A stretch of 64,000 nucleotides of DNA from Streptomyces yatensis (GTDB lineage Bacteria; Actinomycetota; Actinomycetes; Streptomycetales; Streptomycetaceae), in contig NZ_CP072941.1 in NCBI RefSeq assembly GCF_018069625.1, forward strand, positions 9,362,001 to 9,426,000. The letters are read 5' to 3'. The first letter of the stretch is position 1, and each line of letters opens with the position of its first letter. Both the position numbers and the translations under genes were made by a program. A model generated the notes under the pieces. The model searched no databases, was not told the origin of the DNA, and saw only the letters and a list, made by a program, of their open reading frames with translations. Positions 11,136 through 64,000 of this stretch are shown here, piece by piece.

Positions 11136-11168
11136 CCACACATCCCTGACCACACATCCATGACCACA
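11127..11168. repeat. Three 14-bp tandem repeats across the PKS stop codon
   Basis: Three near-identical copies of CATCCCTGACCACA run from 11127; the third has A in place of one C. The PKS stop TGA at 11133-11135 is inside the first copy, and each copy carries its own TGA. This looks like replication slippage at the gene end and leaves the protein unchanged. Confidence 0.85.
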
Positions 11169-11242
11169 TACGAGCGGATAGACCACACCGCATCGTGCCT
11201 GACGCACCATCCGCCCCTGAGGCACAAACGAGGGAGTCAACA

Positions 11243-38480: not shown

Positions 38481-40307
<1,827 letters not shown>

Positions 40308-43171: not shown

Positions 43172-43801
43172 ATGTCGGACAGCACCCTGGCCCCCGATAT
43201 AGATCAGGCCCTGTACGCACTTTCCCCCGAGGGGCGGAAACTTCTCTTCACCGAGGCCAAGACGGCCTATGATTTCAGCGACAAGCCGGTGGGCGACGAC
43301 CGTCTGCAGGCCATCTACGAACTGTTCAAATGGGCCCCGACCTCGGCGAATATCAATCCGCTGCGCATTCTGTACGTGCGTACCGAGGAAGGAAAGCAGC
43401 GGCTGCTGACCGGGGTGGCGCAGCCCAACCAGGAGCAGACCGCCTCGGCTCCGGTCACCGCGGTGCTGGCCGCGGACACCCGTTACCCGGAGTATGTGCC
43501 GTTCCTCGCGCCGTCCAACCCGCAGTTACAGCAGATGCTGGAGGCCAACCAGGAGCTGCGCGAGTCCCACATGGACTTCAACGCGGTGCTCCAGGCGGGC
43601 TACTTCGTGCTGGCCGTCCGCGCCGCGGGGCTCGCCGCCGGGCCGATGAAGGGCTTCAACGCCGCGGCGGTGGACAAGGAGTTCTTCCCCGATGGCCGGT
43701 GGCGGTCGATTCTGCTGGTCAACATCGGCTACCCGGGCGCCGAAGCCTACCGGGACCGGCTGCCGCGGCCCTCGTACGAGCAGGCGGTACGGCTGGTCTG
43801 A
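43172..43801 (+). CDS. Nitroreductase-family flavoprotein (RutE/HadB-like)
   Basis: 209 residues, FMN-dependent nitroreductase fold of the malonic-semialdehyde-reductase (RutE) subgroup: WAPTSANINPLRILYVRT and GLAAGPMKGFNAAAVDKEFF mark the FMN site. It contains an in-frame TTA codon at 43526-43528, so its translation may depend on the late-development bldA tRNA. AAGGAG lies ten bases before the ATG at 43172. It borders the PKS cluster and ends in a hairpin terminator; a role there is possible but unproven. Confidence 0.9.
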   Translation: MSDSTLAPDIDQALYALSPEGRKLLFTEAKTAYDFSDKPVGDDRLQAIYELFKWAPTSANINPLRILYVRTEEGKQRLLTGVAQPNQEQTASAPVTAVLAADTRYPEYVPFLAPSNPQLQQMLEANQELRESHMDFNAVLQAGYFVLAVRAAGLAAGPMKGFNAAAVDKEFFPDGRWRSILLVNIGYPGAEAYRDRLPRPSYEQAVRLV

Positions 43802-43835
43802 CAGCAGTGAGGTGATGTAAGGCGCACACACCCAG

Positions 43836-43871
43836 GGGATCGGGTCACTTCATACGCGGTGACCTGATCCC
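43836..43871 (+). terminator. 13-bp stem-loop after the nitroreductase
   Basis: GGGATCGGGTCAC at 43836-43848 pairs with GTGACCTGATCCC at 43859-43871, with one G-U pair and a 10-base loop. It lies 35 bases past the stop codon, with TCTTCG following. Confidence 0.75.
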
Positions 43872-44095
43872 TCTTCGCGTCGGGCGGCGATCCCCTCGCC
43901 GTGCCGGCCTCGTTCGGCGGCGGTACGCCGAGCCACGTACGTGGGACCCCTCGAGGACCGTCGACTTTCGGCCCAATCGCCGGCCCCCTCCGCTCGTCCA
44001 CACCGCCCGTACGGTGCCCTCCCGTAGGGACGAGGGCCACACCGAGGCGGCCGAAAAGCGCGGCGTGATCGTTTCGTGATGTACGACTCACTCGC

Positions 44096-44125
44096 TTGAC
44101 AGCGCGGCGCACCGGGACCTACGCA
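44096..44125 (+). promoter_or_regulatory. Candidate sigma-70-type promoter for the LAL gene
   Basis: TTGACA at 44096-44101, an 18-base spacer and TACGCA at 44120-44125. It lies about 255 bases before the regulator start. The match is fair at -35 and weak at -10. Confidence 0.4.
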
Positions 44126-44379
44126 TAGGACCCGAGAGTGCCCCCATCCGGTGCATGTCGCAGCCCCACGCTGTTTACATGCTGTTGAAACAAAAGACTC
44201 CGGCCCGGCTCGTATATTTCCCTCACCCATTCTCTTCCCCGGCGGGACGCCGCGGGCATCGAGGGTGGGCGACGCGCTTGTGCCGCCGAGGAGTTCTGCC
44301 TGCTCGTCATGCGCTTTCGCGCGGACATGCCCTATGAGCGGCCGCGCGGATTGAGGAATTTCAGAAAGCTGGGGTGCCT

Positions 44380-47262
44380 GTGAGCTTGATGGAATGCCAC
44401 GATGCAACGGCCGACGCCGGTCGGCCGGCGATCGGTTTCCGGAGGGACCACGAAGGCCAGGGAAACGAGGGGGATCGCGGGCCCGGCGGCGGACCCCCCG
44501 ACCTGGTCGAGCGCGACGACATCCTGGCCGGCCTGGGCGGGCTGCTCGCCGATGCCTCCAGGGGCAAGGGGCAGCTGGCCGTCGTGGACGGGCCGCTGGG
44601 CAGTGGCAAGAGCCGGCTGGTGCACGAGTTCCTCGAAACCCTCGAACCGGACGGCGCCTTGGTCCTGAGGGCCACCGCCTCGCTCCGGGAACATCTGCTG
44701 CCGTTCGGCGTGGTGACCCAGCTCTTCCACGGCATGACGATCCCGCCGCCCAGCCGGGACCGAGTGCGCGCCCTGCTCACCTCGGCGGTCGAACACACCG
44801 GCATCGACGGGGAGTTAGCCGGCGGCGACTGGGAGGTCCACGTCGTCGACGTCTTCCAGAAGCTCACCATGGAGCTGGCCCAGCTGGCCGAGACCACCCC
44901 CTTGGTGATCTGGATCGACAACGCCCACTACCTGGACCCGCCCTCCCTGCACTTCCTCGCCGGCATCGTCCCGTGGCTGCACTCCGCCCGCATCCTGGTG
45001 CTGCTCACCGACGACCACACGCTGCGGTGGCCGCGCTCGCCCCTGCTGGCCGGACTGCTCTCGCAGAGCCCCAACGCACACCGCATCCCCCTGAGCCCCT
45101 TGAGCCGCGGCGCGGTCGACGCCCTGGCCGTCCGGCTGCTCGGACCGCACATCGCCTCCCCGCGGCTGACCGCCGAGCTCCACCGCATCAGCGGCGGCAA
45201 CCCCCTGGCGGTCCAGGCCCTGATCATCGATCAGCAGGCCGGTGGCGCATGCTATCCGGACGGCTACGGACGGGCCCTGCTCGACCTCGTGACGCACTCC
45301 CGGCCGTCGATGCTGTCCGTGGTGCGCGCCCTCGCGGTACTCGGCGGTGCGGCCTCGGTGACCGACGTGGCCCGGCTGGCCGGGGTGGACGCCACGGTGA
45401 CCAGCTGGGCCCTGCACGCCCTGGTCGGCGCCGGACTGCTCACCAAGGGCCATGCGTTCCGCCATCCGGTGGCCGCCACCGCCGTACTGGACGACATGCC
45501 CGCCGACAGCCGGGCCGCACTGCACCGCGCCGCCGCCGAGCTGCTGCATGAGGCCGGTGCGCCCGCGCTGACGGTGGCCGGGCAGTTGATGAGCGCCGGG
45601 GACCCCCGTGCCGACTGCGCCACCGAGGTGCTGGTGACGGCCTCCGACGAGGCGCTGGCGGCCGGCGATGTGGGCACCGCGCTCGGCTGCCTGGACCTCG
45701 CCCAGCGCACCCGGACCGACGACCCCACCGCGGCGCGCATCCGCGCCCGGCTCAGCCGCCTGGAGTGGCAGCTGAAACCGCAGGTCGCCGTCCGTCATCT
45801 CCGTCCCCAGCTACGCGACTTCACCGCGGGCCACCTGGACCGGCAGGATGTCTCCGAGCTGGTGCTCGGTCTGGCCAACGCCGGTGCGCTCACCGAGCTG
45901 ACCGCCCTACTGGACGCCCTGCGCACCCGCTCCCACCAGGGCGCCGGCTCCGGAACCGAGGACCTGCGCCCCCTGACGAACTGGGCGGCGATGGCGTACC
46001 CCCTCCACACCGGGCTGCGGAAACTGGCCCAGTCGGTCGCGGCGGCCACCCCCGAGGCCGCCCCCTGCCACGACCCCTGGCTGCCCTCGGCGGTCACCCT
46101 GGCCGACGACCTGATCCGCGGACGCGACGACCAGCTGGTACACCGCGCCGAACTGCTGCTGCGCACCTTCCACCTCGACCACGGCTCACTGTGGAACGCC
46201 GAGGCCGGAGCCCTCGCCCTGCGCGCGCTGCTCTCCGCGGGTCGCCCGGACGAGGTCGTGGCCTGGTGCGAAAAGCTCGAGGCCGAGGCCGCCGCCCACC
46301 ATGCCGTCGCCTGGCAGGGGAAGTTCCTCGCCCTCCGCGCCGAGGCCCATCTGCGGCAGGGAGACCTGATCCGCGCCCACGACCTGGCGGCCCGCGCCAT
46401 GGCCCTCGTAGCGCCCCAGGGCTGGGGGATCGGCCTGGCCGGGGTGCTGGGCTGCGCCATCCTCGCCGCCACCCGGTCCGGCAGGCTGGAGCAGGCGGAG
46501 AAGTACGTGGCTCAGCCGATACCCGAACCGGTCCTGCACAGCCGCCACGGCGCACACTATCTGCACGCCCGGGGCCACTACCGGCTGGCCACCCACCACC
46601 CGCAGGCCGCGCTCGCGGACTTCCTCGCCTGCGGCAGATTCGCCGAAACCTGGCACGCGCCCGGCGCCGACGCGGTCTCGTGGCGGACCAGCGCGGCCGA
46701 GGCATGGCTGGCACAGGACGACCAGGACCAGGCCAAACGTCTGGTACGGGAACAGATAGCCCGGCTGTTCCCGGGCCCCTCCCGGGCCCGCGGGCTGTGC
46801 CTGCGCACCCTGGCGGCGGTCAGCCGGGTCACCCGCCGCCCGCAACTGCTCACCGAGGCCGTCGACATGCTCAAGGACAGCGGCGACGACTACGAACTGG
46901 CCCGTGCGCTGATCGACCTCAGCATCGCCTTCAAGGACACCGGGGACCAGCGCAATGCCCGCCGGGTGGCCCACCGCGCCTGGCATCTCGCGAAGCAGAC
47001 CGGCGCCGAGCACCTGTGCCGGGAGGCCGCTCTCGACCCCATCGCTCCCGAGGCCGAGCTGGCAGCGCAACAGCGCCAGGACGGGCTGTCCGCCCTCACC
47101 ACGCAGGAGCGCAGGATCGCGCTACTGGCGGCCAAGGGCTACACCAACCGCGAGATCGCCGCCAAGCTCTACATCACCGCGAGCACGGTCGAGCAGCACC
47201 TCACCCGGGTGTTCCGTAAAGTCAACGTCAAGCGGCGGCAGGATCTGCCGCATTTCCTCTAG
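44380..47262 (+). CDS. LAL-family LuxR transcriptional regulator
   Basis: 960 residues. A Walker A motif GPLGSGKS at about 71-78 and a Walker B-like VIWIDNAHYLD mark the N-terminal ATPase; a long helical repeat region follows; a LuxR helix-turn-helix closes the protein (LTTQERRIALLAAKGYTNREIAAKLYITASTVEQHLTRVF, given only to identify the block, about residues 908-950). These large MalT-like regulators activate many polyketide clusters. Leu146 is encoded by a TTA codon at 44815-44817, so bldA control is likely. I chose the GTG at 44380, six bases after GGGG; 44374 and 44389 are alternatives. The probable target is the PKS transcribed beyond it. Confidence 0.95.
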   Translation: MSLMECHDATADAGRPAIGFRRDHEGQGNEGDRGPGGGPPDLVERDDILAGLGGLLADASRGKGQLAVVDGPLGSGKSRLVHEFLETLEPDGALVLRATASLREHLLPFGVVTQLFHGMTIPPPSRDRVRALLTSAVEHTGIDGELAGGDWEVHVVDVFQKLTMELAQLAETTPLVIWIDNAHYLDPPSLHFLAGIVPWLHSARILVLLTDDHTLRWPRSPLLAGLLSQSPNAHRIPLSPLSRGAVDALAVRLLGPHIASPRLTAELHRISGGNPLAVQALIIDQQAGGACYPDGYGRALLDLVTHSRPSMLSVVRALAVLGGAASVTDVARLAGVDATVTSWALHALVGAGLLTKGHAFRHPVAATAVLDDMPADSRAALHRAAAELLHEAGAPALTVAGQLMSAGDPRADCATEVLVTASDEALAAGDVGTALGCLDLAQRTRTDDPTAARIRARLSRLEWQLKPQVAVRHLRPQLRDFTAGHLDRQDVSELVLGLANAGALTELTALLDALRTRSHQGAGSGTEDLRPLTNWAAMAYPLHTGLRKLAQSVAAATPEAAPCHDPWLPSAVTLADDLIRGRDDQLVHRAELLLRTFHLDHGSLWNAEAGALALRALLSAGRPDEVVAWCEKLEAEAAAHHAVAWQGKFLALRAEAHLRQGDLIRAHDLAARAMALVAPQGWGIGLAGVLGCAILAATRSGRLEQAEKYVAQPIPEPVLHSRHGAHYLHARGHYRLATHHPQAALADFLACGRFAETWHAPGADAVSWRTSAAEAWLAQDDQDQAKRLVREQIARLFPGPSRARGLCLRTLAAVSRVTRRPQLLTEAVDMLKDSGDDYELARALIDLSIAFKDTGDQRNARRVAHRAWHLAKQTGAEHLCREAALDPIAPEAELAAQQRQDGLSALTTQERRIALLAAKGYTNREIAAKLYITASTVEQHLTRVFRKVNVKRRQDLPHFL

Positions 47263-47267
47263 CCTCG

Positions 47268-48914
47268 TCATTCCAGCAGCCCGGACCTGAACTGACCGAC
47301 CAGCGCGGTGAGTTCACGGGAGGTGCGGGCCGCGCCGTAGATGTGGTGGTCCGGGCGTACCAGCAGGAACCGCGCCCGCGCCGCTCTCAGCAGCGGCAGA
47401 TACACCTCGTCGACATCGACGACGGCACCCGCTGCCGCCTCGGCGTCCCCCGCCACCATGTGCACCACAGGTGTGCCGAGCCCGGTGAGGAAGGTGAGCT
47501 GAGACTCCTCCAGCGCGGCGGCCGGATCCGCCGACCCCAGCAGCACCGGACCGGTGCCCACCACCTCGTCGAACAGCCCGGTCACGCCCTCGCGCCGCAC
47601 CCGGCCCTGCGGCATGACCTCCCCGGCCGGCGGCACCGGCGCCGTGCCGATCCCGGTGTACAGCAGACCGGTCCGCAGCGGCGGACCCGCGCCCCGCCGC
47701 CTGCCCCGGCCGGTGTCCGCGCTCACGCCCGCGAGCAGCGAGGCGTCCCGGCTCGCGGCGGTGGCGGCGTCGGTCACGCACAGCACCCTGCCCAGCCGTA
47801 CCGCGGTGTCGATGGCCTCCCGCACATGGTCGACGCGCTCACGCGGATAGCTGTCCAGCAGCCGCTCACCGGCGGCGCCCCGCAGCACCAGGTCCAGTTT
47901 CCAGGACAGATTGAGCACATCCCGGATGCCCGCGCACATGCCCTGACCGGTGAACGGTGGCATGAGATGGGCGGCGTCCCCGGCCAGCAGCACCCGCCCG
48001 CGCCGCCATTCGTCGGCCCAGGCGGCCTGGAAGCTGTAGACGGTGTGCCGCTGCAGCGTGGCGTTCTCCGGGGTGACATCGAAGCGTTCCAGCAGGCGCC
48101 AGGCCGTCTCCGCCCGGTTCAGCTCGGCCACGCTCTCCCCGGGCAGCCGCATGAACTCCCAGCGGCGCCGCCCCGGACCGCTGCCCACCGCCGTCGTCGG
48201 CCGGTCCGGATCGCAGTGCTGCACATTGAGCGGGGAGAACACCCGCGGTTCATGGAGCACCACATCGCACAGCAGCCAGTCGAAGGAGAAGCCGAGATCC
48301 GTGGTGCGCACCCCGATGTGGTCGCGGACGAAGCTGTTCGCCCCGTCGCAACCCACCACCCAGGAGGCGGCGCACCGCAACCGCCCACCCGCCGTATCGG
48401 TCGCCGTGAGCTCGACCCCGGCGCCGTGGTCCACCAGGTCCGTCGCGCCGTAACCGCGCAGCACCCGCAGGTTGGGCAGCCGCTCGGCGCGGGCGCACAG
48501 TACCGCCTCCAGCGCCGGCTGGTGGATGGTGGTCGTCTCCGGCCAGCCGTGCGCACCGCGCTCGGCCAGCTCGACCCGCAGCAGGGACCTGCCCTCGGCA
48601 TTGCGCCAGTCGTAGGCGTCGGCCGGCAGACCGATCTCCGGATACGAGCCGGCCACCCCCAGCGACGCCAGGGTCCGGGCCGTCTCACCGTCGAAGCTGG
48701 TCGCCCGGGGCAGCGTGTACGGGTGCTCCCACCGCTCCACGACCAGCACGCGCCAGCCCCGGGTGGCCAGCAGGATGGACAGCACCTGGCCGATGGGTCC
48801 GTAGCCGACGATGAGCACGTCTGCTTCCGGCGCATCCGCTTCTGGTGTGTCCGGCTCCGGCGTGTCCGTTTTCGGCGTGTCCGCTTGTGGTGTGTCCGGG
48901 CCCGCAGGGCACAT
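47268..48914 (-). CDS. FAD-dependent aromatic hydroxylase, Rif-Orf19-like
   Basis: 548 residues of the class A aromatic hydroxylase (MhpA/PheA-like) family, including the C-terminal thioredoxin-like domain ending FLLVRPDHHIYGAA. FAD motifs are VLIVGYGPIGQ (Gly37-Gly42), VVGCDGANSFVRDHIG (DG motif) and VLLAGDAAHLMPPFTGQGMCAGIRD (GD motif). The first 30 residues are five DTPxx repeats. In rifamycin and hygrocin clusters a homologous enzyme next to the PKS hydroxylates the AHBA ring so that the naphthalene can form, which is the likely role here. It is convergent with the LAL gene (5-base gap) and divergent from the PKS. The ATG at 48914 follows a GGAGGAGGGAAG stretch. Confidence 0.9.
   Translation of the reverse strand: MCPAGPDTPQADTPKTDTPEPDTPEADAPEADVLIVGYGPIGQVLSILLATRGWRVLVVERWEHPYTLPRATSFDGETARTLASLGVAGSYPEIGLPADAYDWRNAEGRSLLRVELAERGAHGWPETTTIHQPALEAVLCARAERLPNLRVLRGYGATDLVDHGAGVELTATDTAGGRLRCAASWVVGCDGANSFVRDHIGVRTTDLGFSFDWLLCDVVLHEPRVFSPLNVQHCDPDRPTTAVGSGPGRRRWEFMRLPGESVAELNRAETAWRLLERFDVTPENATLQRHTVYSFQAAWADEWRRGRVLLAGDAAHLMPPFTGQGMCAGIRDVLNLSWKLDLVLRGAAGERLLDSYPRERVDHVREAIDTAVRLGRVLCVTDAATAASRDASLLAGVSADTGRGRRRGAGPPLRTGLLYTGIGTAPVPPAGEVMPQGRVRREGVTGLFDEVVGTGPVLLGSADPAAALEESQLTFLTGLGTPVVHMVAGDAEAAAGAVVDVDEVYLPLLRAARARFLLVRPDHHIYGAARTSRELTALVGQFRSGLLE
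48823..48897 (-). repeat. Five 15-bp tandem repeats at the hydroxylase 5' end
   Basis: Five copies of a unit like GCTTCTGGTGTGTCC on the plus strand encode DTPQA, DTPKT, DTPEP, DTPEA and DAPEA on the minus strand. They form a flexible, acidic tail ahead of the FAD domain and are in frame. Confidence 0.88.
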
Positions 48915-49137
48915 CCGCTCTTCCCTCCTCCGGTGCGGTGAACCTATCAGCGGGTGCCGCGCGGCCTACGGAGAGCGGCCGAACCGACCACGGATAAGGG
49001 GGGCTTGGCGATCACCAAGTAAGGGGGGATGAGGGGGGTGAATCAGGGGATTCTTCTAGTTTTCCGGTGTGAAGCTGGAGTGGGTGAAGCCGCTGACACA
49101 TCACCCGCAACCCTGACCGCAGGGAGGGGAGAGGTGC
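48915..49137. promoter_or_regulatory. Divergent hydroxylase/PKS control region with MalT-box-like site
   Basis: TAAGGGGGG at 48995-49003 and again at 49020-49028 frame the 16-bp dyad CTTGGCGATCACCAAG at 49004-49019 (one mismatched pair). The second repeat runs into GGGGATGAGG at 49025-49034, an exact match to the E. coli MalT box GGGGA(T/G)GAGG, and GGGGATTC recurs at 49047. The neighbouring LAL regulator is MalT-like, so this is its most likely binding site. Confidence 0.65.
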
Positions 49138-52100
49138 ATGCTGCGCGCCGAACTGATCCGCCCGATCCAGGACCTCCTCACCGAGCAGAGCCGCCGCTTC
49201 GGCGACAAAACCGCCTACATCGACGCCCGTCGCGCCATCAGTTACCGCGAACTGGAGGTGCGCACCCGCCGCCTCGCCGGCCATCTGGCCGGACTGAGTC
49301 TGCTGCCGGGTGACCGTGTGGCCATGTACCTCGGCAATCGCGTCGAGATGGTGGAGAGCTACTTCGCCGTCGTCCGCGCCGGTGGCATCGGCGTCCCGGT
49401 CAATCCGCATGTCTCCCAGGCCGAGTTGGAGCATCTGCTCTCCGCCGGCGGCAGCCAGGTCGTCATCACCGACTCCGCCCACCTGCCGCTGCTGCGCCGG
49501 TTGTCACCCGGGACGAGCCCGCCGACCGTGCTGGTCGTGGGGGAGGATCCGGTCCCCCCGGGCTGTCTGTCCTACGAACGGTTCGCCACCACCGAGCCGG
49601 GCACACCGGCCCGCGACGACCACGGGCTCGACGACATCGCCTGGATGCTCTTCACCTCCGGCACCACCAGCAAGCCCAAGGGCGTGCTCGCCACCCAGCG
49701 CAACTGTCTCTGGTCGGTCGCCGCGTCGTACGTACCCGCGCTCGGCCTCACCGCCGAGGACCGCGTGCTCTGGCCGCTGCCCCTGTTCCACAGCCTCTCC
49801 CACATCGTGTGCGTGCTGGCCGTGACGGCTGTCGGAGCGACCGCCCGGATCACCGACGGACACTCCGCCGAGGATGTGCTGGAGCAGTGGGGCCAGGAGC
49901 GCTCCACGGTCATCGCCGGGGTCCCCACGCTGTACCACTTCCTCGTCCGCGCCTCCAAGGCGCCCGGGTTCACCGCCCCGGAGCTGCGGGTGGGCCTGGT
50001 CGGCGGCGCCGTGACCACCGCGGCGCTGCGGCGCTCGGTCGAGGAGGCCTTCGGGGCGCCGCTCATCGACGCGTACGGCAGCACCGAGACCTCGGGTTCG
50101 ATCGCCATCAACTGGCCGACCGGGGCCCGGGTCGAGGGCTCCTGCGGACTCCCCGTCCCCGGCCTCGCCCTGCGGGTGGTCGACCACCGCACCGGCCTGG
50201 ACGTGCCCGACGGGACCGAGGGCGAGGTGTGGGTCCGCGGCCCGAACATCATGGCCGGCTACCACAACCAGCCCGAAGCCACCGCCGAGGCGCTACGGGA
50301 CGGCTGGTTCCACACCGGCGACCTCGCCCGCCGCGACCGGGACGGCTATCTCACGGTCACCGGGCGGCTCAAGGAACTCATCATCCGCGCCGGGGAGAAC
50401 ATCCACCCCGTCGAGGTGGAGGACGTCCTGCGGATGGCACCCGGCGTGGCCGACGCCGCCGTGGTCGGCAAGCCGCACGAGGTGTTCGGCGAAGTCCCCG
50501 TGGCCTTCATCGTCCCGGCGCCCGGTGGCTTCGATCCGGCCCAGGCGCTCGCCCTGTGCCGGGAGAGGCTGTCGTACTTCAAGGTCCCCGAGGAGCTGTA
50601 CGAGATCGCGCGGATCCCGCGCACCACGACCGGAAAGGTCACCCGGCACCGGCTCCTGGACGGCCCGGCACGGCTGCGCGCGGTCGGCAACACCTACCAC
50701 GACGCGCTCTTCCGCACGAACTGGATCCCCCAGCCGACCGCCTCCCAGCCGACCGCCTCCCAACCCCGGCCCGGTCGGTGGGCCCTGCTCGGACAGCCGG
50801 ATACGGGGCTCGTCGGCCTGTTGCGGGCCACCGGCATCGAGCCGGTCGAGCACCTCGACACGGATGGGCTGGGGGCGGCGGTGGCCGCCGGAAGCAGCCC
50901 CCCGCCTGCCGTGGCCCTGCTAGCGGCTGTTGTGGATACCGCGGCCGACGCCACCGCTCAGGGTTCCGGGCGCGCCACCGCGACGGAGGTGGTTCTGAGG
51001 GAAGTCGAGACGTGGCTCGCCTCCGCCGAACTGTCCGATGCGCTGCTGGTGGTGCTGACCCACAGTGCCGTGGCCACCACCACGGGCGAGGACCTGCGGA
51101 ATCCGGGACAGGCCGCGCTGTGGGGGCTGGTGCGGTCCGTGCAGGCCGCTCATCCCGGCCGTATCGCCATCGTCGACCTCGACGAGCCGGATGACGAGGC
51201 GTCTGTCTCCGCCCTGGTGGCCACGGTGGCCTCGGGAGAGCCACAGAGCGCGGTGCGCTCGGGCGTGGTGCTGCTGCCACGGCTCGAACGGGTGGCGCTG
51301 GACGCGGGCCTGGGTGTGGGCGTGGGGCCGGATGTGGGCCTGGGCGTGGGCCTGGGCTGGGACGCCGAGCGGGACACCTCCGTGGCCTTCGACCCGCACG
51401 GCACCGCGGTCGTCACCGGAGTGGACACCCGGCGCGGCGCCGCCATCGCCCGGCACCTGGTGGCCGGTTACGGTGTCCGCCGACTGCTGCTGATCGCCCC
51501 GCCAGGGCAGGGCGGGCGGGCGGCTGAGCTGTGCGCCCAGCTCACCGACGCCGGGGCCGATGTGCGGCTCGTCGAATGCGACCTGGACAACCGCACGAAG
51601 CTGAGGCGCGCGCTGGCCAAGGCGGGGAGCTCCTTGAGCGTGGTCGTGCATGCCTGGGAGGCCGTGGACGAGCCGTCCGACGCGCGAGTGGCCGCCGAGG
51701 CCAGAACACTCCACGAGCTCACCCGGAACGCCGATCTCACCGCGTTCGTACTGTCCTCCTCGACCAAGGGGCTGCTCGGCGCGGCGGGGGAGACCACCGA
51801 GGCGGCCTCCGCCGCCTTCCTCGACGCCTACGCGCAGCATCTGCGCATGCGCGGGATACCGGCCCAGTCCATCGCCTGGGGGCCGTGGGAAGGGGAGACC
51901 GACGAGACGACCGGTGCCCTGAACCCGCAGCAGGCGCTCGCGGCGCTGGACGCCGCCCTGGCCGTGGACCAGGCCCAACTCGTCGCCATGAAGCTCGACT
52001 CGACGGCCGTGCCCACCGGGACGTCCTCCCCGCTGCTGCGGGACCTGATCGACGTCCCGGCCCGTACCGCCACCGTGGACGAGGCCGCCGCGGTCGCACT

Positions 52101-55100
52101 GCGGGAGCGGCTCACGGATGCGCACGAAGCCGACCGGGGCCGGCTGCTCACCGACCTCGTCCGCGCACACCTCGCCGACCTGCTGGGCCTCGCCGACAAG
52201 GAGGCCGTCGAGCCCGAGCGGGCCTTCACCGACCTCGGCCTGACCTCGATCACCGTGGTGGAGCTGCGCAACCGGCTGAGCGAGGCCACCGGGCTCCGCC
52301 TGCCCGCCACCTCCGCCTTCGACCATCCCACACCGCTGGCGTTGGGGGGCATGCTGCGGCGGGAGCTGCTCGGCGGCGGTAGTACGGCAGTGGCATCGGG
52401 GCCGCCGACCGCTGCGGTTTCGGCTCCTGCTTCGGCCGCGGGCTCTGGCGCGGGCGACGATCCGATCGCGATTGTGGGGATGGCCTGCCGATTGCCGGGT
52501 GGGGTCGGCTCGCCGGAGGAGTTGTGGGAGCTGGTTCTGGCAGGGGGTGAGGGGATCGGGGAATTCCCGGCGGATCGGGGGTGGGATCTGGAGAACCTCT
52601 TCGACCCGGATCCGGATCACGCGGGGACGAGCTATGCGCGGCGGGGCGGCTTTCTCTATGACGCCGGGGAGTTCGACGCGGGGTTCTTCGGGATTTCGCC
52701 GCGTGAGGCGCTGGCGATGGATCCGCAGCAGAGGTTGCTGCTGGAGACGTCGTGGGAGGCGTTGGAGCGGGCCGGAATCGATCCGGGCTCGTTACGAGGC
52801 CAGGACGTGGGCGTCTTCGCCGGGATGATGCATCAGAGCTACGGAGTCGGCTCCACCGAAGGAGCGGACACACCGGCCGGTCTGGAAGGCCACCTGATGA
52901 CCGGCACCTCGGCGAGCGTGGTGTCGGGTCGGGTGTCGTATGTGCTGGGGTTCGAGGGTCCTGCGGTGACGGTGGATACGGCGTGTTCGTCGTCGTTGGT
53001 GGCGTTGCATTTGGCGGCGCAGGCGTTGCGGTCGGGTGAGTGCTCGATGGCGCTGGCCGGTGGGGTGACGGTGATGGCCGGGCCGGACGCCTTCGTGGAG
53101 TTCTCCCGTCAGCGTGGGCTTGCAGTCGATGGGCGGTGCAAGTCGTTCGCGGCCGCGGCGGATGGCACGGGGTGGGCCGAGGGTGTGGGTGTGTTGGTGG
53201 TGGAGCGGTTGTCGGATGCGGAGCGTCTTGGGCATCGGGCGTTGGCGGTGGTGCGGGGTAGTGCGGTGAATCAGGATGGTGCGTCGAATGGGTTGACGGC
53301 GCCGAATGGTCCGTCGCAGCAGCGGGTGATCCGGCGGGCGTTGGCGGTTGCGGGGCTGGTGGCGGCCGATGTGGATGCGGTGGAGGCCCATGGGACGGGT
53401 ACGCCGTTGGGTGATCCGATCGAGGCGCAGGCGCTGTTGGCGACGTATGGCCAGGATCGGTCTGAGGGGCGTCCGTTGTGGTTGGGTTCGTTGAAGTCGA
53501 ATATTGGTCATGCGCAGGCGGCTGCGGGTGTGGCTGGTGTGATCAAGATGGTGTTGGCGTTGCGGTATGGGGTGTTGCCGAGGACGTTGCATGTGGATGA
53601 GCGGTCGTCGCAGGTGGATTGGTCGGCGGGTGCGGTGGAGCTGCTGGCCGAGGAGCGGGTGTGGCCGGAGGTGGGGCGTCCGCGTCGGGTTGGGGTGTCG
53701 GGGTTTGGTGTCAGTGGGACGAACGCGCATGTGATTTTGGAGCAGGCTCCGGACCGGTCGGGGGATGGTGTCCCGATGCCGGAGGTGCCGGGTGGTGTGG
53801 TGCCATTGGTGGTGTCGGGGCGTGGTGATGCGGGGTTGCGGGCGCAGGCGCGGCAGTTGCTGGGCTTCGTCGAGGGCCACCCGGGTGTGAGTGTGGTGGA
53901 GCTGGGGGCGGCGCTGACGTCCGGTCGGGCAACGTTGTCGGACCGTGCGGTGGTGGTGGCTGGGGACCGGGCTGAGGCGTTGGCGGGGCTGGCGGCGGTG
54001 GCGGAGGGCGGCGGGGCAGGCGCGGCGGATGTCCGGGGCCGGGTGGTGTTTGTTTTCCCTGGTCAGGGGGCGCAGTGGGTGGGTATGGGTGCGGAGTTGC
54101 TGGAGTCGTGTGGGGTGTTCGCGGAGGCTTTGGGGGAGTGTGCGGGGGTGTTGGATCCGTTGACGGGGTGGTCGTTGGTGGATGTGGTGCGGGGTGTGGG
54201 GGTGGGTGGGGTGTCGTTGGATCGGGTGGATGTGGTGCAGCCGGTGTCGTTTGCGGTGATGGTGTCGTTGGCGCGGGTGTGGTTGGCGGCTGGTGTGGTG
54301 CCGGGTGGGGTGGTGGGTCATTCGCAGGGGGAGATTGCGGCGGCGTGTGTGGCGGGTGGGTTGTCGTTGGAGGATGCGGCGCGGGTGGTGGTGTTGCGGA
54401 GTCGTGCGATCGCGGCGGGGCTATCGGGTCGTGGGGGGATGGTGTCGCTGGCGGTGGGGGAGGACGAGGCTGGGCGGCTGGTTGAGGGGTGGTCGGGCCG
54501 GGTGGAGGTGGCGGCGGTGAATGGGCCGTCGTCGGTGGTGGTGGCCGGTGAGGTGGAGGCTCTGCGGGAGCTGGTGGCGGAGTGCGAGGGTGCGGGGGTG
54601 CGGGCGCGGTGGGTGGATGTGGATTACGCCTCGCATACAGCACAGGTGGAGGCGGTGGAGGAGGAGCTTGCCCGGTCGTTGGCGCAGATCCGGCCGGTGT
54701 CGTCCCGTATTCCGTTCTTCTCGACGGTGGAGGCGGGATGGGTGGATACGGCGCAGTTGGACGCCGGGTACTGGTACCGCAACCTGCGGAGTACCGTCCG
54801 GTTCGCGCCGTCCCTCGAGCGTCTGCTGGAGGAGGACTTCCGGGCGTTTGTTGAGGTGAGTGCGCATCCGGTGCTGACGATGAGCATCGAGGCGGCAGCG
54901 GAGCAGGCGGACGCCGGGCCGGTCGTGGTGACCGGCACCCTCCGCCGGGACGAGGGTGGCATGCGTCGCGTGCTCACGTCCCTGGGCGAGGCGTACGTAC
55001 GCGGTGTCCCCGTCGACTGGACCGCGCTGCTCGGCGACATCCCGGCGCATGCCGCGCTGGAGCTGCCGACCTACGCCTTCCAGCACCAGCACTACTGGCT

Positions 55101-58100
55101 CAAGAGTGGCCACCGATCCGGTGAGGTGACCGCCGTCGGTCTCGCCGGTGCTCAGCACCCCCTGCTGGGCGCATGGGTGGAACTGCCCGACACGGACGGG
55201 GTGTTGTTCACCTCCCGACTGTCGCTGAGCACTCACCCATGGCTGGCCGACCACACGGTGGCCGGTGCGGTCGTCCTCCCAGGATCGGCCTTTGTGGAAC
55301 TGGCGGTACGTGCCGGTGACGAGGTCGGCTGCGGTGTCGTCGACGAATTGCTGATCGAGGCCCCGCTCGTGCTGACGGAGAGCATGAGCGTGCAGCTCCA
55401 GGTGGTCGTCGGTGGGGCGGACGACTCCGGCCGGCGACGACTCACCGTCCACTCCCGGCGGCAGGGCAACGGGTCGGACGGGACGGACTGGACCCGACAC
55501 GCCACGGGCACCCTCGCCGAGACCACCACCGCACCCGATATCGACCTTGCGCTGTGGCCGCCGGCCGGAGCCACACCCGTCGATGTGGACCAGGTGTACG
55601 ACGACATGGCACAGGGCGGACGGGGCGTCGGTCCGGCATTCCGTGCCCTGCGCTCGGCGTGGACCCGTGGCACCGACATCTTCGCCGAGGTGGAACTGGC
55701 CGACGACCAGCACGAGGAAGCGGAGCGCTGCACACTGCACCCCGCACTGCTGGAAGCCGTATGCCACGCCGTCACACACGCCGACACACATGCTGACACT
55801 TACGGTGAGGCATTGGCGCTGCCCGTCGCCTACCGCGCGGTGTCGCTGTCCGCGACCGGGGCGACCGCACTCCGTGCCCGGATCAGCCCGGACGGTCACG
55901 GGGGTGTGGCGCTGGAGCTGGCGGACTCCGCAGGTCGGGCGGTCGGCTCCGTGGGCTCGGTGATGTCGCGGCCACTCCCCGCCGACGAGCTGCTGTCGGG
56001 CGCCGGGACAGATCCGCAGGACGGACTGTTCCAGGTGGAGTGGTGCCCCCTCCCGGTCGCGTCGGCCGCATCCGCCCTCGCCACCTCGGATCCGGCGACG
56101 GCGACGGTCACGAGCCCGGCCGAATTGACGACGCTCACCGCCCACGGGAACGTACCGCCCTTCCTCTGCGTGGACTTGGCGGACACCACGCACGGCCTCC
56201 GGGCGCTGACCGCGCAGGCGCTGGAATGGGTCCAGGCGTGGCTGGCCGTGCCGGAGACCGATGCGCGGCTGGTCATCGTCACCCGCGAGGTCACCGACCC
56301 GATCTGTGCGGCGGTCTGGGGGCTCGTGCGCTCGGCACAGTCGGAGGCCCCGGACCGGCTGGTCCTGGTGGCGATGGACGAGGACGCCGCCTCCGGCGCG
56401 CTGCTGCCCGCCGCGCTGGCCACCGGCGAACCGCAGATCGCCATCACCGCCGGGGCGGCATCCGTACCGAGGCTCGTGCGCGCGACGCGGGATGAGGAAG
56501 GGCCACGGCGGCCGCTGGACCCGGCGGGTACGGTTCTCGTCACCGGTGGCACGGGTGCACTGGGCCGGCTGTTCGCCCGGCACCTGGTGGCCGAGTACGG
56601 CGTGCGCAACCTCCTGCTGGTCAGCCGCCGTGGCGGTGCCGCCGAAGGTATGGCGGAGCTGGAGTCCGAACTGGGCGCGCTGGGCGCGTCCGTACGCACC
56701 GTGGCCTGCGACATCGGTGACCGGACCGCGGTGGCGGAGCTGCTGGCCGCGCTTCCCGGCGAGGCTCCCCTGACGGCGGTCGTCCACACCGCCGGGGTCC
56801 TGGACGACGGCGTGGTCACCGCCATGACACCCGAACGGCTGGACACCGTCCTGCGCCCCAAGGCGGAGGCGGCCCTCATCCTGCACGAGCTGACGCGCGA
56901 CATGGACCTCGCGGCGTTCGTGGTGTTCTCCTCGGCCGCGGGCGTCTTCGGCAACCCCGGACAGGCCAACTACGCGGCGGCCAACGCCTTCCTGGACGCA
57001 CTGGCCCGGCAGCGCGGGGCGGCAGGGCTCCCGGCCACCGCGCTCGCCTGGGGCCACTGGGCGCTCAGCAGCGAGATGACGGCCCATCTCACCGCGGCCG
57101 ACCTGCGCCAGCACGCCCGGCGCTTCGGGATGACCGCCCTGTCGGAGCAGACCGGTCTGGCGCTGTTCGACGCCGGTCTGCGCAGCGCCGCGCCCGCACT
57201 GGTGGCGGCCCGCTTGGACCTCGCGGGCCTGCGCGCCCACGCCACTACCACCCCGGTCGTCCCTCTGCTGCACAAGCTGGTGCCGCCAGGCCGCCGGGTC
57301 GTGAGCCGTACGGAATTGCCGCGGACCGACCTCGTACGACGGCTGGAGTCAGCGGACCCCGCCGAACGGGAGCAGATGCTGCTGGACCTGGTCACACGCC
57401 ATGCCGCCCAGGTGCTCGGGCACTCCTCGGCGGACGGTCTCGCCGCCGCACGTGCCTTCCGGGATCTGGGCTTCGACTCACTGACATCCGTGGAACTGCG
57501 CAACCGGCTCAACGCGACCACCGGGCTCCGGCTGCCCTCGACCCTGCTCTACGACCACCCCAGCCCGCGGGCCCTCACCAGCCATCTGCACACCGAATTG
57601 CTGGGCTCGCCGAGCACCCCCGCCGCCCCGGCACCTGCGGACAAGGCATCGGACGATGGCATCGCCATCGTGGCGATGAGCTGCCGCTTCCCGGGCGGGG
57701 TGAACAGTCCCGAGGACTTCTGGCGCCTGATCAGCGAGGGCGGTGATGCCGTCGGCGACTTCCCGGACGACCGTGGCTGGGATCTGTCGGCGCTCTACGA
57801 CCGCGACCCGGACCACCCCGGCACCTCCTACGTCCGGCACGGCGCCTTCCTGCCCGATGCCGCCGGGTTCGACGCCGACTTCTTCGGGATCTCACCGCGT
57901 GAGGCGCTGGCGATGGATCCGCAGCAGCGGCTGCTGCTGGAGACCTCATGGGAGGTGTTCGAGCGGGCCGGGATCGACCCGACCACGGTGGGCGGCAGCG
58001 CCATCGGCGTGTTCACCGGCATGAACACCCAGGACTACGCGATCCGCCTGCGCCACGTTCCGGACGAGGTCGAGGGACACCGGATCACCGGCGTCTCCGC

Positions 58101-61100
58101 GGCCGTCCTGTCCGGGCGCGTGGCCTACGCCCTGGGCCTGGAGGGTCCCGCGGTGACGGTGGACACGGCGTGTTCGTCGTCGTTGGTGGCGTTGCATCTG
58201 GCGGCGCGGGCGTTGCGGTCGGGGGAGTGCTCGATGGCGCTGGCCGGTGGGGTGACGGTGATGGCCGGGCCGGACGCCTTCGTGGACTTCTCCCGCCAGC
58301 GCGGACTGTCGGTCGACGGCCGGTGCAAGCCCTTCGCCGCCGCGGCCGATGGCACGGGGTGGGCCGAGGGTGTGGGTGTGCTGCTGCTGGAGCGGCTGTC
58401 GGACGCGGAGCGGAACGGCCACCAGGTGCTGGCGGTGGTGCGGGGCAGTGCGATCAACCAGGATGGTGCGTCGAACGGTCTGACGGCGCCGAACGGACCG
58501 TCGCAGCAGCGCGTCATCCGGCAGGCACTGGCCAGTGCGGGTGTGTCGGCCGCCGAGGTGGACGTGGTCGAGGCGCACGGCACGGGAACGGCACTGGGCG
58601 ATCCCATCGAGGCGCAGGCCATCCTCGCCACCTACGGACAGGACCGCGACCGGCCACTGTGGCTGGGCTCGGTGAAGTCCAACATCGGCCATGCCCAAGC
58701 CGCCGCGGGTGTGGCCGGTGTGATCAAGACGGTCATGGCGATGCGGCACGGTGTCCTGCCGCGTACGCTGCACGTCGACGCACCCACCCCGGAGGTGGAC
58801 TGGTCGGCGGGTTCGGTGGAACTGCTGACCGAGGAACGGCCCTGGCCGGAGGCGCAACGCCCGCGCCGGGCCGGAGTGTCCGCGTTCGGCGTCAGCGGCA
58901 CCAACGCCCATGTGATCGTCGAGCAGGCGCCTGCCACTGCCACCGAGCCCGCCACTGCCACCGCCCCCGAGCCCGTCGCGGCGGACCCGGACGCGCTCCC
59001 CGCCATACCGTGGGTGATCTCGGCCAGGAGCGCCGACGCGCTGTTCGGCCAGGCGGCCCGGCTCGCGGACTTCGCCCGCCGGCACACGGAAGTCGACCCG
59101 GGCGACATCGCCCACTCGCTCATCACCACACGAGCCGTATTCGACCACCGGGCCGTGGTCGTGGGCGTGGGGCGTGCGGAGTTGCTGAGCGGGCTGGACG
59201 CCATCATGGGGCCGAGCGATGGTCCGGTCGCGCGAGGTGTGCCGAGTCCCGGCAGGCTGGCGGTGCTGTTCACCGGACAGGGCAGCCAGTACGGGGGCAT
59301 GGGCCGGGAGCTGCATGCGCGCTATCCCGTGTTCCGCGAAGCCTTCGACGCGGCCTGTGCGCAACTGGACCGGCATCTGGTCGACGCCGGGCATGTCGCG
59401 CACCCCGTCCGGGACGTCGTGTTCGCCGAGCCAGGATCCCCCGAAGCGGAACTGCTCGACCGGACGGTGTACGCCCAGGCGGGGCTGTTCGCGCTGGAGA
59501 CCGCGCTGTTCCGGCTGTACGCGTCCTGGGGAGTGCGCCCCGACGCCCTCGCCGGCCACTCCGTAGGAGAGCTGACCGCGGCCCATGTGGCGGGCGTGCT
59601 GTCACTCGATGACGCCGCCGCGCTGCTGGCCGCGCGCGGGCGGCTGATGCAGGCCCTGCCCGCTGGCGCGATGGTCGCGCTCAACGCTCCCGAGGCCGTG
59701 GTGCGGTCTCTGCTGGCCGATGAACCGGGCGCCGTGGACATCGCCGCGGTCAACGGGCCCGCTTCCGTCGTCGTCTCCGGCGACCAGGACGCCGTGGTGG
59801 CCGTCGAGCGGAAATGCGCCGCCGAGGGGTACCGGACCAAGCGGCTGCGGGTCAGCCATGCCTTCCACTCCGCGCATATGGACGGCATGCTGGAGGCGTT
59901 CCGCGCCGTCGCCGCCGGGCTGTCGTACGCGCCTCCGACGGTGCCCGTCGTCTCCAACGTCACGGGCGACTGGGCCACCCCCGACCAGCTGTGCTCCCCG
60001 GACTACTGGGTCGAGCACGCCCGCAGGACCGTCCGTTTCCTCGACGGCGTCAGTGCGCTCCACGCCGGGGACACCACGACGTTCCTGGAACTGGGCCCCG
60101 ACGGTGTCCTCACCGCCATGGCGCAGGAAGCGCTGGGCGACGGTGCCGACCCGGCCATGTTCGTGGCCACGTTGCACGGCGAACAGGCCGATCCGGTCGC
60201 CGCCGTGGCCGCGCTCGCCCGGCTGCACGTCCGTGGCGTTCCGGTCGACTGGACCGCGCTGCTCTCGGGGGCCTCTCGGCGCAGGGTCGACCTGCCGACC
60301 TACGCCTTCCAGCACCGGCGGTACTGGCCCGACGCCCCCGTATCGGACGCCACTACGGCAGGTCAGCTGCTTCCCGCACGACGGTTGCCGCCGGAGGAGG
60401 CAGTGACCCCGGGCGGCGGCACCACGGCCTTCGCCGAGCGACTGAAGGCCGGCACGGAGGCCGAGGGCCACCTGCTGGCCCTGGATGTGGTGCTGAGCAG
60501 CGCGGCCGCGGTGCTGGGACATGACGACGCGTCGACGATCGACGGCGAACGGGCCTTCCAGGAACTCGGCTTCGACTCCCTGAACGTGGTCCGGCTCCGC
60601 AACCGCCTGCGCGACCTGACCGGCGCCGAGCTGCCGACCACACTCGCCTTCGACTATCCGACACCGGCCGCGCTCGCGTCGTTCCTGCACGCCCGGCTTC
60701 TCGGACGGGACACCGGCCCGACCGGATCGGCATGGGCGGCGAGCGACCCCACGGAGCCCATCGCGATCGTCGGGATGGCGTGCCGGTTGCCGGGCGGCGT
60801 GTCCTCGCCGGAGGACCTGTGGGAGCTGGTTACGGCCGGGGGCGAGGGCATCGGGGATTTCCCCGTGGACCGTGGCTGGGATCTGGAGAACCTGTTCGAC
60901 CCGGACCCGGACCACGCCGGGACCAGTTATGCGCGGCGAGGCGGATTCCTCTACGACGCGGCCGAGTTCGACGCCGACTTCTTCGGGATCTCACCGCGTG
61001 AGGCGCTGGCGATGGATCCGCAGCAGCGGCTGCTGCTGGAGACGTCGTGGGAGGCGTTGGAGCGGGCCGGGATCGACCCGGCCTCGCTCCGCGGCCATGA

Positions 61101-64000
61101 CATCGGTGTCTTCGCCGGAATGGTCAACCACGACTACGCCAGCCGCCTCGACACGGCTCCCGACGGCTCCGAGGGTTACCTCATGACCGGCGGCGCGGGA
61201 AGTGTGCTGTCGGGTCGGGTGTCGTACGTGCTGGGGTTCGAGGGTCCTGCGGTGACGGTGGATACGGCGTGTTCGTCGTCGTTGGTGGCGTTGCATTTGG
61301 CGGCGCAGGCGTTGCGGTCGGGTGAGTGCTCGATGGCGCTGGCCGGTGGGGTGACGGTGATGGCCGGGCCGGACGCCTTCGTGGAGTTCTCCCGTCAGCG
61401 TGGGCTCGCCCCGGATGGCCGATCCAAGTCGTTCGCGGCCGCGGCGGATGGCACGGGGTGGGCCGAGGGCGCGGGCGTGCTGCTGGTGGAGCGGCTGTCG
61501 GATGCGGAGCGTCTTGGCCATCGGGTGTTGGCGGTGGTGCGGGGCAGTGCGGTGAATCAGGATGGTGCGTCGAATGGGTTGACGGCGCCGAATGGTCCGT
61601 CGCAGCAGCGGGTGATCCGGCGGGCGTTGTCGGTTGCGGGGCTGGTGGCGGCCGATGTGGATGCGGTCGAGGCCCATGGGACGGGTACGCCGTTGGGTGA
61701 TCCGATCGAGGCGCAGGCGGTGTTGGCCACGTATGGCCAGGATCGTGAGCGGCCGCTGCTGATGGGTTCGTTGAAGTCGAATATTGGTCATGCGCAGGCG
61801 GCTGCGGGTGTGGCTGGTGTGATCAAGATGGTGTTGGCGCTGCGGCATGGGGTGTTGCCGAGGACGTTGCATGTGGATGAGCCGACCCCGCAGGTGGATT
61901 GGTCGGCGGGTGCGGTGGAGTTGTTGACCGGGGAGCGGGCGTGGCCGGAGGTGGGGCGCCCGCGCCGGGCCGGGGTGTCCGCGTTCGGGGTCAGCGGCAC
62001 CAACGCCCACGTCATCCTGGAACAGCCCTTGGACGTACCCGAGCCCGCCCCCTCTGCTCCGCAGCCGCCCGGTGGTCTGGCGCTTCTTCCGGTGTCCGGG
62101 CGAGGCGAGGGCGCGCTGCGTGCTCAGGCGCAGAGGTTGCTGTCCTTCCTGGTTCAGCGGCCGAACCAGGATCTCGGCGAGGTCGCGCTCGCGTTGGGTT
62201 GTGGTCGGGCGGGGTTGTCGGATCGTGCGGTGGTGGTGGCGGGGGATCGGGAGGAGGCGTTGGCGGGGTTGGGTGCGGTGGTGCGGGGTGAGTCGTCTGC
62301 GGGTGTGGTGTCGGGTTCGGTGGTGCGTGGTCGGTTGGGGGTGTTGTTCGCTGGTCAGGGGTGTCAGCGGGTGGGGATGGGGCGTGGGTTGTATGAGGTG
62401 TTCCCCGTGTTCCGGGAGGCTTTTGATGTGGTGTGTGAGGCGTTGGACCGGGAGTTGGGTGCGGGTGGTGTGTCGGGTTCGGTGCGGGAGGTGGTGTTCG
62501 GGGATGGGGAGCTGTTGGAGCGGACGGTGTTTGCTCAGGCGGGGTTGTTTGCGGTGGAGGTGGGGTTGTTCCGGTTGGTGGAGTCGTGGGGTGTGGTGGT
62601 GGATGTGGTGGGTGGGCATTCGGTGGGTGAGGTGGCGGCGGCGTATGTGGCGGGTGTGGTGTCGTTGGCGGATGCGGCGGTGTTGGTGGCGGCGCGGGGT
62701 CGGTTGATGGAGGCGCTGCCGGAGGGCGGTGCGATGGTGGCGGTGGGCGCGGGTGAGGAGGAGGTGCGGCCGCTGCTGGTGGCAGGGGTGGACATAGCGG
62801 CAGTGAACGGGCCTGCGGCCGTGGTCCTTTCCGGCGATGAGGAGCCGGTGTTGCGGGTGGCGGAAAAGCTATCGGCGCGGGGGTGTCGGACGAGGCGGCT
62901 GGCGGTTTCGCATGCGTTCCACTCGGCCCATATGGAGCCGATGCTGGAGGAGTTCCGGGCAGCGATCGCTGATCTGTCGTTCTCGGCGCCGGTGATCTCC
63001 TTGGTGTCGAACGTGACGGGTGCGTTGGCGGATGCGGAGACGGTGTGCTCGCCGGAGTACTGGGTGGAACATGTGCGTTCGGCCGTGCGGTTCTCGGATG
63101 GAGTGCGAGCACTCGCCGACTACGGAGTGAGCGCGTATCTGGAGCTCGCGCCGGACGCGGTGTTGTCCGCGATGGTCGGTGACTGTCTGCCGGAAGAGTC
63201 GGCGGCCGCGGAGTCCGTGGTGGTGCCGTCCCTGCGGCGGGAGGGCGATGAGGTCCGTGCGCTGTTGTCCGCCGTCGCCCAACTCCATGTGGCAGGCGTA
63301 CGTATCGACTTCGGCGCCCTGTTCGGCGGTGCCGTTCCGCCCGTCCACCTCCCCGATCTGCCCACGTACGCCTTCCAGCGTGCGCACTACTGGCTCCATG
63401 ACACCCGGCCCGCCGCTCACCAGAGCCCCGACTCCTCCGACGACACCGACGACGCCCGGTTCTGGGCCGCCGTCGAACGCGAGGACCTGGGCTCGGTGGC
63501 CGAGGCGCTGGACCTGGCCGACGGCGAGGACGACCGCGCCGCGCTGGACGCCGTGGGCGGCGCGCTGGGCGTGCTGTCGGACTGGCGACGCAAGCGCGGT
63601 GAGAAGTCCGCGGCCGACCGGCTGCGCTACCAGGTCACCTGGAAGCCGCTTCCCGGTGCCGCCTCCGGCGTACCCACCGGCACCTGGCTGGTCGTCCTGC
63701 CGTACGGCTGCCGCGACGAGGACTACGCGGCCCAGGTGGCCCCGGCGCTGAATCGCCAGGGTCTGCGCACCACGACGCTACGGCTCGGCGGAGCCGAATC
63801 GGCGGACCGCGTCGCCCTCGCCGAGACGCTGCGTGGCGTGCTGGCGGACCATGAGGACATCGGTGGAGTGCTGTCCTTGCTCGCGCTCGACCAGCGCAAA
63901 CGTCCCGGCTCCGCGACGCTCACCGAGGGTGTCGCGGCCACCTTGGCCCTGGTGCAAGCTCTCGGCGACCTGGGCTCCGGCCACCGTCTGTACTGCGCCA
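49138..64000 (+). CDS. Ansamycin-type polyketide synthase, loading module plus modules 1-3 (partial)
   Basis: 4954 residues in the window; it runs off the end. The loading module has an acyl-adenylating domain 49138-50690 ([22 protein letters not shown]), a KR-like region 50700-52000 without the glycine-rich motif or Ser/Tyr, and an ACP 52120-52360 (GLTS instead of GxDS). Module 1: KS 52465-53745, AT 54040-54990 with GHSQGE/YASH (methylmalonyl), DH 55150-56000, KR 56530-57060 with LDD and intact Ser/Tyr, ACP near 57470. Module 2: KS, AT 59255-60180 with GHSVGE/HAFH (malonyl), ACP, no reduction. Module 3: KS, malonyl AT 62330-63230, KR region starting at 63600. The ATG at 49138 follows AGGGAGGGGAGAGG. 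A TTA codon at 52792 lies in KS1. The aromatic starter is probably AHBA, inferred from the neighbours. Confidence 0.96.
52922..53120 (+). repeat. Near-identical KS tract shared with module 3 (copy 1)
   Basis: About 199 bases match 61208-61406 with a single difference seen (TAT versus TAC). Similarity continues with scattered changes to about 53650. Codon ends here are unusually T-rich (GTG TCG GGT, GGT CCT GCG), unlike the C-ending flanks. Confidence 0.85.
61208..61406 (+). repeat. Near-identical KS tract shared with module 1 (copy 2)
   Basis: The counterpart of 52922-53120, at an exact offset of 8286 bases. High similarity extends to about 61930. A shorter, less perfect copy is in module 2 near 58140-58270. 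This indicates recent recombination between modules. Confidence 0.85.

Follow-up and report, generated by a model that had tools for sequence, protein, structure and literature searches.

Genes of the locus

We analysed a 64,000-nucleotide stretch of Streptomyces yatensis DNA (the window; positions 9362001-9426000, forward strand, of a single-contig genome of 10,360,357 bases) that holds the first third of a polyketide synthase (PKS) gene cluster. The complete gene set spans 71 kb, and we consider it very probable that it is a hygrocin-type naphthoquinone ansamycin cluster. The region read comprised the window plus its flanks (genome 9302001-9562000), genes were called by a simple GC-frame script with approximate start positions, and 18 core genes were defined by comparison with S. 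fumanus. Since the gene order is kept in other species, the gene pattern is not a product of chance.

The assembly line consists of a loading adenylation domain and acyl carrier protein (ACP) followed by eight modules, distributed over five PKS polypeptides. The first PKS gene (window 49138..64000, + strand, continuing to 65622) is a single open frame of 5494 aa encoding the loading module and modules 1-3; Pfam domains cover residues 1-2700, and later domains were assigned from motifs. Its loading adenylation domain (49180..50637, +; AMP-binding, E 1.5e-89, and AMP-binding_C, residues 15-500) would activate 3-amino-5-hydroxybenzoic acid (AHBA), and a ketoreductase (KR)-like stretch separates AMP-binding_C from the loading ACP (52156..52353, +; PP-binding, residues 1007-1072). 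Module 1 (52459..57627, +, end approximate; Pfam and motifs) contains ketosynthase (KS), acyltransferase (AT), dehydratase (DH), KR and ACP domains, with the methylmalonyl motif YASH in the AT. Because LHPALLEAV replaces the LHPxLLDxA found in the other DH domains, its DH is probably inactive. Module 2 (57655..60747, +, limits approximate) is a non-reducing KS-AT-ACP module by motifs, with the malonyl motif HAFH and no KR found by motif calls. Module 3 (60748..64000, +, start approximate, continuing to 65622) shows KS-AT(HAFH, malonyl)-KR-ACP motifs, and its KR is predicted to be inactive, as the active-site Tyr position in the stretch SSVASVWGGGGQGLIGAANA is occupied by Ile when compared with the module 1 KR. 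The adenylating loader, methylmalonyl module 1, non-reducing malonyl module 2 and malonyl module 3 described in a first-pass annotation of the window were all recovered.

The remaining PKS genes lie beyond the window and are given in genome coordinates. PKS 2 (9427651-9434271) carries module 4, KS-AT(VASH)-DH-ER-KR-ACP, where ER denotes enoylreductase; PKS 3 (9434353-9439896) carries module 5, KS-AT(HAFH)-DH-KR-ACP; and PKS 4 (9439915-9446441) carries module 6, KS-AT(YASH)-DH-ER-KR-ACP, whose gene is broken within the AT into two open frames. PKS 5 (9446468-9454867) encodes module 7, KS-AT(YASH)-ACP, and module 8, KS-AT(HAFH)-DH-KR-ACP. Pfam was applied to PKS 2 and 3 and to the first of the two PKS 4 frames, and the rest was assigned by motifs. 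AT3 and AT8 are identical at 290 of 290 compared residues and share a 667-base exact DNA repeat (genome 9424318 and 9451185), which may reflect either a recent gene conversion or a duplication.

Directly after PKS 5 lies a RifF/GdmF-type amide synthase (9454919-9455677; Acetyltransf_2), whose best match is GdmF (5e-49), with arylamine N-acetyltransferases next at 2e-22; only one other Acetyltransf_2 member was found in the genome, at 4529133. It is followed by a luciferase-like monooxygenase (9455747-9456973), assigned to the LLM superfamily, its scores falling short of the cut-off for each of the 25 families listed, and by a P450 identified by family search (9457070-9458269). About 11 kb past the P450 begin six AHBA-pathway genes (9469399-9475227; profile and structure matches), encoding an AHBA-associated phosphatase (TIGR01454, 358 bits against a cut-off of 247), a GFO/IDH oxidoreductase, AHBA synthase, a type II dehydroquinase, a ROK kinase and a dehydroquinate (DHQ)-synthase-like enzyme. 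We take these to be of the RifK, L, M, N, G and J types. The AHBA synthase, found through PF01041, matches the RifK-type structure 1b9h (E 2.9e-189), with the next other enzyme at 4.6e-57. The amide synthase and the AHBA genes thus lie 29-49 kb beyond the window end, within the next 80 kb, where the first-pass annotation had expected AHBA synthase, amide synthase and RifF-type release genes; their absence from the genome was one outcome it had named as fatal to its reading.

Upstream of PKS 1, an MhpA-like FAD aromatic hydroxylase (window 47268..48818, -; NCBIfam NF004829, PRK06183 subfamily) scores 610 bits against a cut-off of 390, in agreement with the earlier assignment, and at the family level is the enzyme expected for a naphthalenic ansamycin. 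Homologues at 52-56% stand beside amide synthases in other genomes, while the closest solved structures in a PDB search are angucycline-type oxygenases (E 8e-28). Matches with E <= 1e-100 occur in 14 of 120 relatives, the source genome included, and matches with E <= 1e-60 occur in all 13 genomes behind the named amide-synthase loci (13 of 16 loci covered). We presume that it oxidises the AHBA ring as the flavin hydroxylase Rif-Orf19 is taken to do in rifamycin biosynthesis, the likeness between the two being at the level of the MhpA-type family only. The LAL-type regulator of the first-pass annotation was likewise recovered (44380..47262, +), with AAA_16 and a C-terminal LuxR/GerE helix-turn-helix, and is syntenic in relatives. 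The cluster had been proposed to start at 43172, and this position does open a core gene (43172..43801, +), a nitroreductase-fold flavoprotein of the malonic semialdehyde reductase family (NCBIfam NF003768, 241 bits, cut-off 152) with homologues at 96% and 99% in relatives G096 and G055 and at 80% in S. fumanus; the conserved cluster begins one gene earlier, with a zinc-binding alcohol dehydrogenase (42018..42980, -; Pfam ADH_N/ADH_zinc_N). The latter is 77% identical to the S. fumanus homologue adjoining the cluster there, and the next genes outward (g028-g032) have no match near the S. fumanus cluster. Both edge genes are retained in this compact cluster, where those five neighbours are gone, and they might catalyse a tailoring reaction of hygrocin-type ansamycins that has yet to be described, a proposal we regard as unlikely.

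The predicted product and its agreement with hygrocins

In the proposed pathway, genes, domains, extender motifs and synteny are observed directly and each enzymatic step is assigned from enzyme family and chemistry. The clustered aminoshikimate genes would make AHBA, which the loading module would adenylate, and the eight modules on five polypeptides would extend the chain with propionate, acetate, acetate, ethylmalonate, acetate, propionate, propionate and acetate. Oxidation of the ring by the FAD hydroxylase could then allow the second naphthoquinone ring to close, and macrolactam formation by the amide synthase would free the chain. In a Baeyer-Villiger reaction, the luciferase-like monooxygenase may insert an oxygen between C5 and C6, and the P450 may hydroxylate C7.

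By AT motif, the extenders of modules 1-8 are propionate, acetate, acetate, an alkyl-bearing unit (VASH), acetate, propionate, propionate and acetate. As beta-processing by a module acts on the unit added by the preceding one, the predicted chain has C2=C3 (module 8), a C5 ketone (module 7), a C7 methylene (module 6), C8=C9 (module 5), a C11 methylene (module 4), a C13 ketone (module 3, with its KR inactive) and a further ketone for the aromatic ring (module 2), with methyl branches at C4 and C6 and an alkyl branch at C10. With ethylmalonyl at module 4 the carbon count is 7+3+2+2+4+2+3+3+2 = 28; given the other extenders as assigned, C10 must bear an ethyl group for C28 to be reached. PMC9686540 describes hygrocins as C28H31NO8, with a C5-O-C6 lactone, oxygen at C7, an 8E alkene, a C10 stereocentre, methyls 4a and 6a and a ketone at C13, and it also lists C29 hygrocin methyl esters. 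The predicted C5 ketone, C8=C9 bond, C13 ketone and C4/C6 methyls coincide with these positions, and the eight modules yield the C28 skeleton if ethyl is assumed at module 4. A Baeyer-Villiger oxidation of the C5 ketone has been proposed for divergolides and hygrocins (PMC9668088), and the luciferase-like monooxygenase would be the enzyme for this C5-O-C6 insertion.

The cluster has an adenylating loading module on a modular PKS, AHBA synthase and pathway genes, and a RifF/GdmF-type amide synthase at the PKS end. The first-pass annotation had suggested a naphthalenoid ansamycin of the hygrocin/divergolide type, with acetate at module 3, or else a new scaffold. The former is supported by the AHBA genes, the amide synthase and the HAFH motif at module 3, and the latter is not needed, as the whole line fits hygrocin.

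Alternative readings

A non-ansamycin benzoate loader was considered and rejected in view of the AHBA genes and amide synthase. The first-pass annotation had named a best match to such a loader as evidence against an ansamycin; among the best 120 of 935 loading-module matches considered, the closest is 96% identical (Streptomyces antimycoticus) and the next six are 86-91%, including S. malaysiensis, S. asiaticus and S. rapamycinicus. All seven are from Streptomyces, and those with species names all belong to the same clade. From these names we place the source strain in what we take to be the S. violaceusniger clade. Relatives near 59% in this set include S. olivaceus and S. fuscichromogenes, whose genomes contain amide synthase, luciferase-like monooxygenase and AHBA synthase genes.

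Membership in the rifamycin type, or in a wholly new naphthalenic class, seems to us scarcely credible. AHBA loading, the MhpA-like hydroxylase and RifF-like release are features we take rifamycin to share, but the line has eight modules against the ten that we assume for the rifamycin PKS, and HAFH/acetate at module 3 where we assume propionate; neither rifamycin trait is found here. A luciferase-like monooxygenase also stands directly after the amide synthase, and the whole chain fits hygrocin. The closer competitor has the same line with module 4 taking isobutylmalonyl-CoA, as in divergolides. AT4 is set apart from the methylmalonyl ATs of modules 1 and 7 by its identities (147/289 to AT1 and 147/290 to AT7, against 255/289 between AT1 and AT7); AT6 was left out of this comparison because its gene is split. 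The VASH motif of AT4 has been called ethylmalonyl-specific (PMC6090053), and an ethyl branch is described in the related hygrolansamycins, at C-8 in the numbering of that paper (PMC9668088). The same motif is found at the same module in divergolide AT4, and divergolide O and hygrocin C are reported from one strain (PMC9668088). The div cluster, however, has its own crotonyl-CoA carboxylase/reductase (CCR; DivR) and FabH (DivS) (PMC6490886), whereas this genome has two CCR matches above the family cut-off, at 2.81 and 1.32 Mb and so 6.6 and 8.1 Mb away from the cluster; a methylmalonyl-CoA-mutase-family gene lies near one of them, and NDP-hexose genes lie beside the other (8 of the 12 called genes were typed in the first neighbourhood and 2 of the 11 in the second). 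Five ketoacyl-synthase-III loci are found elsewhere, at 1.38, 3.10, 3.84, 7.13 and 9.97 Mb, the nearest 0.5 Mb from the cluster; one of them and the second CCR are 57 kb apart, and a remote branched supply is therefore possible. In the genome-wide search neither a CCR nor a ketoacyl synthase III gene turned up within 0.5 Mb of the cluster, and the linked supply genes of a divergolide locus are thus lacking. Given this distance, an ethyl branch from module 4, and hence hygrocin, is favoured over isobutyl, and we give the divergolide reading little weight.

A further possibility, compatible with the hygrocin type as to kind, is that the cluster has decayed and no longer yields a product, the module-6 break being real and the line stopping after module 5. 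The frame breaks within AT6 in this genome and also in G055, where the position differs slightly; among the genomes compared, G096 and S. fumanus have the module-6 gene uninterrupted, as a single frame, and the other 17 core genes are open and align nearly full length with relatives. Exact repeats of 194-197 bp are also common to the AT6 region and module 7, and assembly errors are likely there. The break could represent decay in two strains or an assembly error in a repeat-rich gene, and we hold decay to be the less probable, though a serious, option.

Several points weigh against the hygrocin assignment itself. No hgc-named protein is among the best 120 of 935 loading-module matches or among the 37 of 699 amide synthase candidates listed (E <= 0.001). 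No aminoDAHP synthase gene was found near the cluster in a PF01474 search of the genome; the two class II DAHP (3-deoxy-D-arabino-heptulosonate 7-phosphate) synthase loci, at 7516174 and 8057197, are 1.4-1.9 Mb away, so the aminoDAHP step would lack a dedicated clustered PF01474 gene. VASH inserted into one tested AT left activities unchanged (PMC6090053), and divergolide AT4, a domain that uses isobutylmalonyl, also has VASH as its published fingerprint (PMC6490886). Module 8 predicts C2=C3, but in hygrocins the double bond is C3=C4 and C2 is bonded to C19, a mismatch that we put down to a bond shift during ring closure; the passages of PMC9686540 that describe hygrocins also list a C27 hygrocin (T) and do not name the C10 substituent. 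Finally, the module-6 frame break may mean that this strain makes no hygrocin-type product.

Surroundings, relatives and known clusters

The first 11 kb of the window are the end of another large PKS, and window 1-12436 comprises the tail of this PKS, a separate modular protein of 8990 aa, and the P450 gene after it. Upstream, condensation domains of the nonribosomal peptide synthetase type are found at genome 9296473-9301023, and the two together are consistent with the meridamycin neighbour reported in related strains. A flavin monooxygenase related to the pentalenolactone D synthase PtlE (38481-40307; 740 bits against a cut-off of 1100) lies outside the core as delimited by S. fumanus. Nine called genes separate the P450 from the AHBA genes (genome 9458251-9468867): AlkB, Oxygenase-NA, O6-methylguanine methyltransferase, a weak RsbA-type match, trypsin, pyridine nucleotide-disulphide oxidoreductase, PepSY-TM, one without match and sigma-70. 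The first three are of the DNA-alkylation-repair type. The block has no match in a 90-kb region surrounding the S. fumanus cluster, where the AHBA genes directly follow the P450, and it is therefore not part of the core.

Using tblastn, 40 called genes (g028-g067) were compared with relative genomes. G096 and G055 each matched 39 of 40, missing the DHQ-synthase-like AHBA gene and the MerR gene, respectively, in the same gene order and mostly at 87-99% identity (lowest 81.5%). G230 matched 14 of 40 in a different arrangement (AHBA genes 54-75%, hydroxylase 54%, amide synthase 46%), and the PKS matches there may reflect PKS genes of any kind. In S. fumanus 19 of 40 queries matched at 70-97%, corresponding to 18 genes when the two pieces of the module-6 gene are taken as one: the alcohol dehydrogenase, nitroreductase-fold, LAL, hydroxylase, five PKS, amide synthase, luciferase-like monooxygenase, P450 and six AHBA genes, with an identical module order including VASH at module 4. 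A scan of named genomes gave 16 amide synthase loci (six at 95-96%, four at 83-85%, two at 57% and four at 36-39%), and 20 of 295 sampled Streptomyces genomes, the source included, have a match with E <= 1e-30, three others at 96%. In S. iranensis DSM 41954 (L014 1-10756; G342:C3:221342-222886) the hydroxylase and amide synthase are about 12 kb apart, and a 3310-aa open stretch runs from loading-module sequence straight into two modules resembling 7 and 8, either a real deletion or an assembly collapse. In S. samsunensis DSM 42010 (L018 8217-10753) a partial LAL match (residues 1-553) directly precedes the amide synthase, without an intervening PKS and in a locus free of N; the PKS is apparently missing or collapsed.

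The cluster kind is already known and reported in several species of the clade. Published accounts describe an antiSMASH hygrocin A/B region in S. rapamycinicus NRRL 5491 (11,099,441-11,181,894) right after Meridamycin (10,976,611-11,092,238; PMC9206652), the adjoining regions 2.10 (hygrocin A/B, 91%) and 2.11 (meridamycin, 77%) in S. melanosporofaciens STM-2 (PMC13047742), a hygrocin A/B region with 96% similarity in S. malaysiensis 8ZJF-21 (PMC9131080), and hygrocin gene clusters as common in the rugose-spore lineage (PMC8407293). As a discovery the locus adds little; the antibiotic class was correctly inferred in the first-pass annotation from about 22 kb of the 71-kb gene set, and the S. 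fumanus comparison yields an 18-gene core.

Among other comparable systems, the S. olivaceus (L025) and S. fuscichromogenes (L024) loci share the amide synthase (57%), the luciferase-like monooxygenase (78-79%) and the P450 (56-57%), but have a different gene order, with the hydroxylase beside AHBA synthase (L074, L075). Their product may be olimycin, a surmise based on a title on OvmO in the reference list of PMC9686540 and on the producer of that compound. The rifamycin cluster shares the 1b9h-family AHBA synthase, amide synthase and MhpA-type hydroxylase families and differs in what we take to be its extender pattern and module count. The divergolide cluster (BGC0001119) shares the VASH AT at module 4 and an ansamycin product with a proposed Baeyer-Villiger step (PMC9668088), but carries DivR/DivS for the isobutylmalonyl extender, which have no counterpart near the cluster described here. 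The closest likeness is to the hgc cluster of Streptomyces sp. LZ35 (MIBiG BGC0000075; PMC11213898), for which the amide synthase hgcF is listed and the product is a naphthoquinone ansamycin. The predicted skeleton and functional groups equal those of published hygrocins, a likeness drawn through published products rather than cluster sequence, and the module-6 gene differs in being interrupted in the present assembly.

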